Shown: piece by piece, positions 19,061 through 60,107 of the stretch
How positions within the stretch are numbered: position 1 is the stretch's first letter
How the letters are laid out: each line of letters opens with the position of its first letter
NCBI GenBank assembly: GCA_948144175.1
Contig: CANXME010000050.1
Coordinates: forward strand, 1-64,000
Source of the DNA: Closterium sp. NIES-65
Lineage: Eukaryota; Streptophyta; Zygnematophyceae; Desmidiales; Closteriaceae
Length of the DNA: 64,000 bases
Direction of reading: 5' to 3'
The notes under the pieces: generated by a model
Told to the model about the DNA's origin: nothing
The model's database searches: none
Seen by the model: only the letters and a program-made list of their open reading frames with translations
Translations under genes and position numbers: made by a program

Positions 19061-19107
19061 GGTGGGCCCTTAAAAATTCGGTCCTAGGAAGGACCTGCTC
19101 TATACCA
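19059..19107 (-). other. PBS and initiator-tRNA-Met-like 3' half (El-5)
   Basis: On the plus strand gtggtgggccc, ggtcctagga, acctg and ctctatacca are collinear with the anticodon-stem-to-CCA half of plant tRNA-iMet. The minus-strand PBS tggtatagagca directly follows the LTR. Confidence 0.65.
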
Positions 19108-32694: not shown

Positions 32695-32742
32695 GTGGTG
32701 GGCCCAAGGAAGGGTTCCCACTAGGGAACCTGCTCTATACCA
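32695..32742 (-). other. PBS and initiator-tRNA-Met-like block (El-7)
   Basis: Plus strand gtggtgggccca, gggttccca, gaacctg and ctctatacca. The minus-strand PBS reads tggtatagagca directly after the LTR. Confidence 0.65.
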
Positions 32743-41769: not shown

Positions 41770-41833
41770 ACAGAGTAGCAGCGGAAGCAGTTAGGTGGGC
41801 CCACAGGCCAGGAGCGTAGATGCTCTGATAGCA
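41770..41833 (-). other. PBS region with near full-length initiator tRNA-Met similarity (El-9)
   Basis: Appears identical to 610-673 of El-1: cagagtagc, agcggaagc, ggtgggccca, ccagga, gctctgata and gca in tRNA order. It abuts the LTR. Confidence 0.7.
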
Positions 41834-44002: not shown

Positions 44003-44124
44003 TGAGGAAAGTAGAACGAGAATGAATTGACTAAGGAATGGGAGTGATACAAATATGCAACCCTAGAAATGTGTACCCCATACGGACTACCCCACTATAG
44101 CCTACACAATATTATAATTTGACA
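44003..44124 (-). repeat. 3' LTR of El-10 (122 bp)
   Basis: TGAGGAAAG...TTTGACA on the plus strand. PPT follows on the right. Confidence 0.94.
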
Positions 44125-44336: not shown

Positions 44337-46322
44337 TCAAGAGGTGAGCAAGTGAGGGAAGACAGGCACAAGACCCAGCTGAGTGCAGAAGCGCTGATGA
44401 TCACAAGGCGGAAGTGCCTTGGTGAAAACATCAGCAGTGTTGGCCTCAGAGGCCACGTACGCAAGTCGCAACTGACCACGCTGCTGCAGCTCACGAGCAA
44501 GAAAGTAGCGGAGAGCAATGTGCTTTGTTCTGTGCTCCAGACGCTGCTCCCGACACAAGGCTAGCATGGCCTTGTTGTCTACGTACAGCACCGGAGGAGA
44601 ACGAGGCGGCTCTCCGAGGTCAGTCAGCAGGTAGGTAAGCCAGCGAAGCTCCTGTGCAGCCATGGCCCCGGCGTAGATCTCAGCCTCACAACTGGAGCCG
44701 AGAACAGAAGACGAGCGAGTAGCCCGCCACAAAACAGAGCCGGAACCAAGGCTGAAGGTGTAACCCTGTGACGACCGCTGCGTAGCCTGGTCGTCTGCCC
44801 AAGAAGCGTCCACGTGCCCAGTGAGGACCACTGGACTCCGCCCTCCAAGCACTAGCCCCATGCCCGACGTACTGCACAAGTAGCGCAACACCCTCTTCGC
44901 TGCAGCCATGTGCTCTGGTCTGTGTCTCCCAGGAGCAACATACCGTGCAAGAATGCTAAGAGGGTATGCAAGGTCAGGTCGTGTGCAGGTCATCAGGTAC
45001 ATGAGGCAGCCAACAAGCTCTGGGTACGGGCCACTCGACTCTACGGACTCATCCGAAGGCAGAGCTGAGAGCGAGTGGCGAGTAGACAGAGGAGTGGCCT
45101 GAGGCGAGGAGTACGTGAAGCCGAGGCGCTGAAGGACCTGCTGCACCATGTGTGACTGGGTCAGGGTAATGGTGCGGCGTGCTCTGTCCCGGGTGATCTG
45201 CAAGCCAAGGTAGCTGCGCAGTTCACCCAGGTCTGTGCACGTGTGTCTCTTCTGCAGCTCAGACTTCACGTGGGCGAGTCCACCAGTGTCAGCTGTGGCA
45301 AAGACCAAGTCGTCGACGTACACGAGGATGTAGAACGGCGGCAGAGAGGTGTCGGTGCGTAGAAACAGCGACGGGTCAGCAGTAGAGGGAGCAAACCCAA
45401 GAGCCGCAAGTGTAGTCCTCAGTGTATCGTGCCACTCGCGCGGTGCCTGGCAGAGACCGTAGACTGGCCGTCGGAGGCTCCACAGGGTGCCACGAGGGAA
45501 ACTCCCAGTGAAGCCAGGTGGACGGCGCAACCAGATCTCCTCGTGCAGGCTACCCTACAGGAAAGAAGTGCTGAAGTCAAGGGAGTGAAGCTCGTAGTCA
45601 CGCTGAGCGGCTATGTGTAGCAGCACCCAAAGAGTGGTCATCTTCGGGGTGGAAGAGAAGGTCTGAAAGTAGTCAACTCCCTGCCGCTAACTGAAGCCAC
45701 GAGCCACGTACCGCGCCTTGAAGACAGGTGGAGAGCCCGGCGGCCGCTTCACCCTGAAGATCCACATCCCACTGACGATGTTCGCCCCAGGAGGGGGAAC
45801 CGCGTCAACGTAGGTGCCTGTGGACTTCCAGGAAGCCATCTCTGCATCCATAGCTGCCTGCCACTGAGAGGAGTAGGGACCCTCTATCGCCTCCGCGTAA
45901 GAGCGCGAAATCGGGATGTCTAGTTTATCCGGGTCTCCCTCAGGGGTAAGCAGTACGGACACGAGATGAGGTGAAGCAGCAGCCAGACACTGGAACTCCT
46001 CCTGCCTGTCCTCAAGGACGTCCGTGCTAAGAGCACACTCACCCCCGACGGACGAAGGACAGACAGACGCAGCCTCGGCAACAAGACTAGCAGCGTAGTC
46101 TAGACGACAGCGAGCAGCAAAGTCGACGAGCTCAGCAACAAGAGCAGACGGGGCAGTGGACTCAAAGGAGGGGTCACTGACGACAGTAGCAAGGAGACGC
46201 GTGACAGTAGGACTGGCAGCACGAAGAGAGTCCGACTCAGGGTCGGCAAGCGCAGAAAGAGAGGACTCAGGAGGAGAGGGCAAAGGGGCATGCACAGGAG
46301 CAGTGGACGGACGCAGAGACAT
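44337..46322 (-). pseudogene. Reverse transcriptase-RNase H (El-10)
   Basis: Two large open pieces. 45687-46322 has MSLRPSTAPVHAPLP, SVGGECALSTDVLEDRQEEFQ, MAS/WKSTGTYVDAVPPPGANIV and MWIFRVKRPPGSPPVFKARYVARGFS, then TAA in place of the next Gln. 44337-45530 has the FTGSF block, YGLCQAPREWHDTL, catalytic YVDD at residues 71-74, VQQVLQRLGFTY and the full RNase H (DASWADDQATQRSSQGY, SCEAEIYAGAM, YVDNKAMLALCREQ, HIALRYFLARELQQ, ANTADVFTKAL). A second break lies near 45550-45560, where a Gln codon is TAG. Active-site residues intact. Confidence 0.88.
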
Positions 46323-46451
46323 CCGGTGCGTGCCAGGGACAGGAGGAGGACGCTGACGCGAACTGCGACCACTAGTGCGAGCAGCACTAACAAGCGACGC
46401 AGGACGAGACGCAGGCTCACGACGCTCAGCAAGACCTCCAGTAGGACCAGT

Positions 46452-51218: not shown

Positions 51219-51266
51219 GTGGTGGGCCCTAGGCACAGTTCCCAAGGGGGAACCTGGTCGATACCA
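51219..51266 (-). other. PBS and the clearest initiator-tRNA-Met 3'-half similarity (El-10)
   Basis: Plus strand gtggtgggccc, cacag, tcccaagg, gaacctgg and gatacca are collinear with the tRNA-iMet stretch from anticodon stem to CCA, with only small gaps and scattered changes over about 48 bases. The minus-strand PBS reads tggtatcgaccagg directly after the LTR. Confidence 0.7.
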
Positions 51267-51388
51267 TGAGGAAAGTAGAACGAGAATGAATTGACTAAGG
51301 AATGGGAGTGATACAAATATGCAACCCTAGAAATGTGTACCCCATACGGACTACCCCACTATAGCCTACGCAATATTATAATTTGACA
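51267..51388 (-). repeat. 5' LTR of El-10 (122 bp)
   Basis: One difference from the 3' LTR. Followed by TSD cttca. Confidence 0.94.
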
Positions 51389-52169: not shown

Positions 52170-52174
52170 GCATA

Positions 52175-52315
52175 TGTCAGTAGATCTGCACTGTGGATGC
52201 CCGATTGATCCTGGAGAGGGTTACAGGCGCGTTTGCCTGGGGGGTTATGGGCGCACTGACCCGCTACTGAAACAAGCCCTTCTATCCCAATGGTCTAGTG
52301 GTTGGGATTCTGACA
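52175..52315 (+). repeat. 5' LTR of El-11 (141 bp)
   Basis: Identical by eye to 52409-52549. Contains a hairpin tcccaa...ttggga near its end and, at 52243-52256, ggttatgggcgcac, close to the antisense of the tRNA-iMet anticodon arm. Confidence 0.93.
52291..52301 (+). promoter_or_regulatory. Pol III A-box-like element
   Basis: tggtctagtgg, matching the tRNA A-box consensus in an equivalent position. A second copy is in the 3' LTR at 52525-52535. Confidence 0.55.
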
Positions 52316-52334
52316 TGGTATCAGAGCGGTCTCG

Positions 52335-52345
52335 GGTTCGAATCC
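52335..52345 (+). promoter_or_regulatory. Pol III B-box-like element
   Basis: ggttcgaatcc is an exact B-box consensus match 33 bases after the A box, a normal tRNA-gene spacing. No run of four T occurs inside the element; the first is at 52563-52566 just outside. Confidence 0.6.
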
Positions 52346-52408
52346 CGGTGTATGCACATGTAGGCCGGTGCCGCTGTGCTTAGTCCTAGGCCTCCCAGTG
52401 TGGGGGGG

Positions 52409-52549
52409 TGTCAGTAGATCTGCACTGTGGATGCCCGATTGATCCTGGAGAGGGTTACAGGCGCGTTTGCCTGGGGGGTTATGGGCGCACTGACCCGCTA
52501 CTGAAACAAGCCCTTCTATCCCAATGGTCTAGTGGTTGGGATTCTGACA
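52409..52549 (+). repeat. 3' LTR of El-11 (141 bp)
   Basis: Preceded by the PPT, followed by TSD gcata. Confidence 0.93.
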
Positions 52550-52554
52550 GCATA

Positions 52555-54050
52555 CATATTAATTTTGTACTGCATTTTCATTGGTGCACGATTAGGCAAA
52601 AATATTGCCGCAATAAACAAACTTACAAAACATTACATGGCTTCACGTTTGGGGCTATTGCATAACATGCAATACATTGTAGGGAAAAAAAAAGATTGCA
52701 TCCACTTTGGATGATAGATAAGAAAATAAGGACAGAAATCACACGTAGTCGCAAAGGCCTACGACAATGATTAGAAGCATGTGTCATATGCAGCATGTAG
52801 TTGAGATGCTCAAATGCCCTGCGCGATGGTACAGATGGAGGTGTTACTGGAGAGGAAAATGGTAGAAGATGAGAAAGAAATGTGCGTGTTGAGAATTTAG
52901 GTGCAAAGGCTGATTTTTTAAGGAAGCAAGGGCATAACAAAAAACAAGCAGCAACAGAGGGATGCGAGCAGTTGACCATAGCCTAAGTCTCGATGTCAAT
53001 GACGACTGATGCACAGACTAGAGCGAAGCCATGGCATCCATGTGCTGCCCTGTAGGGAACTGGAGGGGGTGATTGACGAAAACCCATAGAGATAGAGGAA
53101 CATAAGGTGTAAATAAGAAATGTTTAACATGGAAAAAAAGGACGAAGATCAAATGGGAAATGAAAAGGGGGGTTTTGCTTATAATTCGTTACTACGAGGG
53201 TTGAAAGTACTCGTAACAGCATCACGAGCGACGTGTCTACCGTCGGTCGGAGCGAAATGCGTCGTTGTTGTTGCGTCATGCGTAGCTGATGCGGAGTTTA
53301 GTACTCGTTGTTGCCGCATCGACTGTCGCTGTGGAGCAAATCCATTCGTGCGGAGCAAATGTACATGGGGAGGTAGGAGAACAAGGGGAGGGGGGCTTTA
53401 AGGAGGCGTCTAGTGAATACGAGCCATTATTGCAAAGGGAGGGACGATTGTGCCTACGATCCCATGAGAAACCTGGTCTCGATAAAAGTCGGTACTACAC
53501 ATGGGATGCATGGTGTGCAGGTTGAGTTGAGCGCGACAGTGAATCTATCGATGTAATACGTGTGACACACTTGGTGATAGTTTGGATCAGTCCAGGACAA
53601 CACAAGCGGATTGCATGAAGGCAAATACATGCACGAAGTGGAGTGACGCATCACTATGTGGGAAGACCAAAGTCGGAAATCTTGCGAAATACTTTGCTCT
53701 GCAATATCATAAACATCAATGACATTTTGGGAATGGTGGAAAATACTGAAATATTGCAACAACCGATGTCGATTTCATTACAATATCGTAGTCGAATGAC
53801 AATAGAGCAGGCCACGATATGAGCCATTGCGCAAACTAAGTGGGCAGGCGGCTTCGAGGATATTTCTTCGTCTGCGATCGGCATTGGCATCGAATAAGTA
53901 AATGCCCTAAGGAAAACAAGCATTAGGTAGACGTGAAGTGGAATAGTATGAGAAGTAGGAAAACGCTAGATGTCAGTAGGAAGACTTGACGCGCCCAACC
54001 CAACCAACCCTTTAGTAGGGTTTATGATGATTCGTGCAGGTATAGCTTAT
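52555..54050. other. Spacer, no gene recognised
   Basis: About 1.5 kb of lower-GC sequence with short frames only. I see no known motif. Confidence 0.5.
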
Positions 54051-60059: not shown

Positions 60060-60107
60060 GTGGTGGGCCCAAGGAAGCGTTCCCACTAGGGAACCTGCTC
60101 TATACCA
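60060..60107 (-). other. PBS and initiator-tRNA-Met-like block (El-12)
   Basis: Plus strand gtggtgggccca, gttccca, gaacctg, ctctatacca, next to the LTR. Confidence 0.65.

Follow-up and report, generated by a model that had tools for sequence, protein, structure and literature searches.

A high-copy TRIM of Closterium sp. NIES-65 with a candidate tRNA-type Pol III promoter divided at the LTR/PBS border

The element and its box pair

The window, by which we mean the whole 64-kb stretch of DNA that was analysed, contains a 375-bp LTR element on its plus strand. The two 141-bp LTRs, located at 52175-52315 and 52409-52549, are identical when compared with each other, and the element is flanked by the 5-bp TSD GCATA, present at 52170-52174 and again at 52550-52554. 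Between the LTRs lies a non-coding interior of 93 bp (52316-52408), in which the PBS, TGGTATCAGAGC, directly follows the 5′ LTR (52316-52327) and a polypurine tract of seven G residues directly precedes the 3′ LTR (52402-52408). With two short LTRs, a PBS, a polypurine tract, no coding sequence and a size below 1 kb, the element has the make-up of a TRIM. The preliminary description, made from the sequence alone, had called it a genuine TRIM on the basis of these LTRs, TSDs and LTR borders, and all of them are confirmed.

With CCA added, the 3′ end of the one host initiator tRNA-Met gene that was compared (L096) pairs with the PBS at all 12 of its positions; we take this tRNA to be of land-plant type, which points to a streptophyte host. 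Downstream of this gene, the first run of four or more T residues is exactly TTTT. The initiator tRNA-Met pattern was found at 33 places in the genome when up to three mismatches were allowed.

Two boxes lie on either side of the LTR/PBS junction. The A box, TGGTCTAGTGG, is found in the end of the 5′ LTR (52291-52301), and the B box, GGTTCGAATCC, in the interior (52335-52345), where it starts 20 nt past the LTR end. Both match exactly what we take to be the consensus sequences, TRGYNNARNNG and GGTTCGANTCC, respectively. Their starts are 44 nt apart, which is the ordinary spacing of a tRNA gene, and, over both strands of the 64-kb window, they form the only A-B pair whose gap falls between 25 and 60 nt. 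The 3′ LTR also contains the A box, with no B box downstream of it. If the A box is counted as tRNA position 8, the LTR would end at about position 32, within the anticodon loop.

Boxes of this kind are short, which speaks for a chance resemblance around a Met-tRNA PBS. We nevertheless consider such a coincidence very improbable: when the 375 bp were dinucleotide-shuffled 20,000 times, no A-B pair arose and a B box arose four times, the spacing is canonical, and the boxes are retained at thousands of places and in two subfamilies, as described below. The A and B boxes proposed in the preliminary description are borne out by these results, and a tRNA-type box pair spanning the LTR/PBS junction of a real TRIM is supported.

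At the RNA level, default models do not recognise the segment as a tRNA. ARAGORN found no tRNA in the segment with default settings or at a 90% threshold, and no Rfam family, tRNA included, matched it at the gathering score. A permissive Rfam scan returned a weak match within the tRNA clan, to tmRNA (12.5 bits, E 0.0073, gathering score 47), that covers the T arm and the last part of the D arm; a shorter stretch matched over the T arm alone. At a 70% threshold, ARAGORN called a tRNA-Val-like structure at 52279-52355 together with a second one on the opposite strand, both being calls on the native sequence alone, and its relaxed search with introns gave more than 1,000 calls and is meaningless. 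The RNA fold is no more stable than that of shuffled sequence (z -0.93, 30 of 200 shuffles being at least as stable). A functional split tRNA gene is thus rejected, since default tRNA models find none and the fold equals shuffles. What had been announced as a tRNA gene split over LTR and PBS survives as a tRNA-type promoter that is split. A tRNA model score no better than that of shuffled sequence had been named in the preliminary description as speaking against the match, and this has come about in part: the default tRNA models stay below their cut-off, and the fold is that of shuffles. The isotype Glu given to the segment is an assumption: one pattern for a host tRNA-Glu gene matched two places in the genome, both of them in TRIM LTRs, and another pattern matched none. 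In the genome, 63 places were picked out with the Rfam tRNA model.

The folding results also bear on a different reading, in which the segment works as RNA, a hairpin or tRNA-like fold beside the PBS aiding primer annealing or packaging. Pairing is indeed available, as the LTR end and the PBS can pair through TCTGA/TCAGA and TCCCAAT can pair with GTTGGGA within the LTR end, and one LTR end carries a paired A to G and T to C change in the latter stem. However, the fold energies are those of shuffles (z -0.93, 0.00 and 0.14), there is no default tRNA model match, and very few double changes are seen among 155 LTR ends, and we hold this reading to be improbable. As a separate observation, the upstream LTR end of locus L095 has an altered A box and a flanking stem that still pairs, TCCCAGT/ACTGGGA replacing TCCCAAT/GTTGGGA.

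Copies in the genome and retention of the boxes

The genome assembly searched comprises 874 Mb in 2,400 contigs. All genome-wide counts allow up to three mismatches, and the reversed-sequence controls gave zero every time. LTR-end tiles were found 10,544 times and LTR-end/PBS junctions 4,594 times. PBS/B-box units occur 3,177 times at the spacing of the window copy and 2,213 times at a spacing 3 nt longer; the two types should not cross-match within three mismatches, and their sum would then be 5,390, that is, about one unit for every two LTR ends. Interior tiles numbered 2,555, for a query that contains a letter not common to most sampled copies. Because the assembly includes duplicate or haplotype contigs, the raw counts are inflated and the true number is lower. 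The same insertion with its flanks was observed on several contigs for L001-L003, for L004, L010, L013 and L023, and for L012 and L017.

Perfect 5-bp TSDs surround 29 of the 30 best full-length loci, which correspond to about 24 separate sites as judged by their flanks and include the window's own site three times. In the set L031-L093, a full-length match was obtained in 45 of 63 loci (five of the 45 being also among the first 30, and 18 loci lacking such a match), and 32 of these 45 have perfect TSDs. The family therefore shows TRIM dispersal, with dispersed copies and TSDs. A short-interior subfamily of about 345-349 bp, represented by L074, L080, L085 and L086, has three extra bases between the PBS and the B box, and its longer spacing is the one carried by the 2,213 units mentioned above. 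Tandem TRIM arrays with common LTRs and a period of about 210-235 bp were observed at L049, L061, L079 and L090 and at G000:C2069:673821-674643. A scan of IMG/VR with the PBS/B-box core gave no match, in a collection that may not include records close to this genome.

The fairest sample in which to follow the boxes consists of 30 loci selected through an interior pattern that includes neither of them; these loci, the first 30 to match exactly out of 2,555 places, were not drawn at random, and three of them are the window's own site. The family LTR is present in 28 of the 30, with the A-box consensus in 28 of 28 and the exact B box in 25 of 28, and in the other two loci the LTR is foreign and lacks an A box. 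A larger sample pools loci selected in different ways: among its 155 LTR ends, 148 have the A-box consensus, 146 a CAA triplet and 140 a TTTT, and in the 61 that are followed by an exact PBS core the A box is always found (61/61) and both boxes occur in 49, the exact B box being absent from 12. In these 49 two-box copies the start distance is 44 nt in 44 cases and 47 nt in five. The preliminary description had proposed that other copies be checked for the boxes, whose loss there would make the match coincidental; the boxes recur.

Sequence divergence was compared in three sets from which duplicates and loci without a full-length match had been removed: set A (23 of 30 loci), set B, which is interior-selected (26 of 30), and set C, which is junction-selected and was chosen by the 5′ junction (17 of 20). 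LTR columns 97-141 vary less than columns 1-96 in set B (p 0.0016 for the 5′ LTR and 0.058 for the 3′ LTR) and in set C (p 0.007 and 0.0001). Columns 97-141 contain no CpG. When CpG columns were removed and columns 97-141 were compared with 13-96, the p values were 0.011 and 0.07 for the 5′ and 3′ LTRs of set B and 0.16 and 0.004 for those of set C, and no effect was found in set A (p 0.53 and 0.25). With CpG columns removed, the B box shows no significant excess conservation in sets A, B or C. The B-box stretch 154-181 varies more than stretch 182-227 in set B (0.025 vs 0.011), where the latter stretch overlaps the pattern by which the set was selected, and varies less than it in set C. Counted over the whole genome, the LTR-end tile occurs no more often than tile 61-90 of the LTR body (10,544 vs 10,493). 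The evidence for selection on the promoter is mixed, and the idea of strong selection is weakened by the tile counts and the CpG-filtered columns.

These data are what could be expected if the element were an ordinary Pol II-transcribed TRIM and the boxes a passive relic of a captured tRNA-derived sequence such as a SINE, as the LTR end lacks extra conservation in the genome-wide tile counts, much of the regional difference is lost without CpG columns and the B-box excess is not significant. Retention of the boxes in copies that were not selected for them (28/28 and 25/28) argues against a passive relic, as does the presence of the B box in the second subfamily in spite of the three extra bases. 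On balance, we regard this explanation as rather unlikely.

Candidate start, terminator and transcript

Terminators were scored in 57 copies, out of 63 distinct ones from which six were dropped for absence of two GGTCTA motifs. None of the 57 has a TATAWA or an AATAAA in its 5′ LTR, which also counts against ordinary Pol II transcription. A TTTT lies in the 3′ LTR, 12 nt upstream of GGTCTA, in 51 of the 57 copies and is missing from six. In 50 of these 51, no other TTTT lies between the 5′ A box and this one, and the remaining copy has an earlier TTTT in the body of its 3′ LTR. This absence of TTTT from the intervening segment in 56 of 57 copies is slightly telling at most, because AAAA, taken as a control, is also absent from 47 of the same 57 segments and present in 10.

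The window copy differs from most sampled copies at LTR positions 106-109, where TTCT replaces TTTT at 52280-52283 in the 5′ LTR and at 52514-52517 in the 3′ LTR. Its first downstream TTTT is at 52563-52566, 14-17 nt outside the element, and transcription of this copy would read through to it because of the TTCT. The preliminary description had made this outside TTTT the first one available; that is right for the window copy and a few others and wrong for most of the family, in which the TTTT is inside the 3′ LTR in 51 of 57 copies. Read-through to a flanking TTTT as a general mode is rejected on the same count.

A candidate Pol III start is the CAA triplet at 52273-52275 (LTR 99-101), which precedes TCCC by 10-12 nt and the A box by 16-18 nt. 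In flowering plants, according to a published study, a CAA within 10 nt upstream can act as the start of a tRNA gene, and a run of four or more T residues lies downstream of most tRNA genes (PMC11700998). With its 10-12 nt, the CAA of the TRIM is just on the border of this customary 10-nt range, which speaks against such a start. A start at CAA and a stop at the 3′-LTR TTTT would predict a Pol III RNA of about 244 nt with terminal repeats of about 10 nt. One weakness is that Pol III would have to pass the 5′-LTR TTTT, which would come about 7-10 nt into the transcript.

A Pol III transcription route for the element is plausible. We consider it fairly likely that this high-copy TRIM has a type-2 promoter, put together over the LTR/PBS border, from which Pol III transcribes it, and that it is primed by initiator tRNA-Met and helped by a Copia element. 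TFIIIC would contact two sites, the A box within the final 25 nt of the 5′ LTR and the B box some 20 nt inside the interior, with the PBS sitting between them at the place of the anticodon arm in a tRNA gene. The transcript would begin around the CAA (LTR 99-101) and end in the TTTT at LTR 106-109 of the 3′ LTR; its length would be about 244 nt, and the roughly 10 nt shared by its two ends could in principle suffice for the first strand transfer. Initiator tRNA-Met would then prime the synthesis, and a Copia element with a like primer site would supply the proteins.

In this scheme the whole promoter would be present only where a 5′ LTR is joined to the interior, 3′ LTRs and solo LTRs carrying half of it. 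The stricter version, in which the promoter exists only as an integration product, 3′ and solo LTRs are silent, a Pol III start and a TTTT terminator within the LTR delimit an R region of about 10 nt, and a full Pol III cycle serves an LTR element found about 5,000 times in the assembly, could equally well hold or fail. If the split is real, only templates of use to the element would be transcribed, and the promoter, the primer site and the repeat for strand transfer would be linked in a single module of about 75 nt.

Relation to known elements and to Copia sequences

Helenus is the name given to TRIMs whose LTRs contain a tRNA-like sequence, and the name TRIMp3 has been proposed for TRIMs with a Pol III promoter (Kojima 2024, PMC10886601). 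As far as the available text of that paper goes, Selaginella moellendorffii is the only plant species with Helenus, its Helenus-1_SMo having an LTR of 120 bp and an interior of 85 bp; fungal and plant Helenus have 5-bp TSDs, and the fungal ones appear to be Copia-driven (PMC10886601). The Closterium TRIM shares with them the short LTRs, the tRNA-type A and B boxes, the PBS, the polypurine tract and the 5-bp TSDs. It is set apart from the Helenus families by their published description rather than by their sequences (PMC10886601): there, the tRNA-like sequence lies within the LTRs, whereas the PBS of the Closterium TRIM separates an A box in the LTR from a B box in the interior.

The preliminary description knew of no TRIM with a tRNA gene divided in this way. 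Helenus precedes the element as a TRIM with tRNA-like sequence, although that sequence is described as being within the LTRs (PMC10886601). No split arrangement of A and B boxes was found in the literature, as covered by the titles and abstract openings among the matches listed and by the text of PMC10886601. On these sources, tRNA-promoter TRIMs are already known, and the split across LTR and PBS is the new part.

Cassandra offers a second comparison. Its RNA has an 18-bp terminal repeat and a Pol III promoter and terminator (PMC10886601, available text), and Cassandra tandem arrays have been reported (PMC7215508, available text). The Closterium TRIM resembles it in its Pol III promoter and terminator, which are candidates here, in the short terminal repeat predicted for its RNA, and in its tandem arrays. 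The Cassandra promoter, however, is 5S-derived and located inside each LTR, whereas that of the Closterium TRIM would be of tRNA type and split; default and permissive Rfam scans gave no 5S match in the element. Since the promoter is inside each LTR in Helenus and Cassandra, as the available descriptions have it, their 3′ LTRs could fire into flanking DNA. SMARTs and ordinary TRIMs have the same size and the same non-coding layout of LTR, PBS and polypurine tract. SMARTs are reported to be probably Copia-driven, and the available text mentions no tRNA-type promoter for either group (PMC10886601). A type-2 Pol III promoter, here a candidate one, in a small element that codes for nothing recalls tRNA-derived SINEs, unlike which the Closterium TRIM has LTRs, a PBS, a polypurine tract and 5-bp TSDs that show mobilisation as an LTR retrotransposon. 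A split-promoter TRIM would offer a concrete test of LTR-element replication through Pol III RNAs.

Hybrid copies connect the family to Copia elements. At 13 places in the genome, an LTR end of another kind precedes the PBS and B box. With L055, L066 and L083 added, there are 16 hybrid loci (L031-L043, L055, L066 and L083) in which foreign sequence, in several cases a Copia-type LTR, is joined at the PBS and continues into the TRIM PBS, interior and 3′ LTR. Several of these are copies of single events, namely L041/L043, L032/L037 and L031/L039/L040, and the foreign LTR is reversed in L031, L039 and L040. The foreign part matches window repeats in seven of the nine loci L031-L039, L033 and L038 being without a match. 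In L032 and L037, the 5′ LTR shares 88.5-90.2% identity, along 121 nt, with the window LTRs at 44003-44124 and 51267-51388, which flank RVT_2 (reverse transcriptase) and rve (integrase) domains. After the TRIM 3′ LTR, a second PBS-like sequence is present in 10 of the 16 hybrids (that of L038 being one base off), and in eight of those 10 it runs into non-TRIM sequence. In L032 this sequence, by our reading, appears to code for a peptide that the Copia ORF at 45687-46451 of the window also encodes.

Recombination with a Copia element at a common primer site is thus seen in these loci, and they show the exchange point between helper and parasite sequence. Template switching at the common PBS within one particle would explain both hybrid borders. 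The hybrids may also have arisen by recombination after integration. A search for TSDs around them gave no convincing match. That the hybrids are joined exactly at the PBS points to a Copia helper. In the window, variant primer sites of Copia-type elements reading TGGTATCGACC and TGGTATAGAGC, for comparison with TGGTATCAGAGC of the TRIM, were observed at about 51256-51266, 60097-60107, 32732-32742 and 19097-19107 (minus strand), and two further ones, at 662-673 and 41822-41833, read TGCTATCAGAGC.
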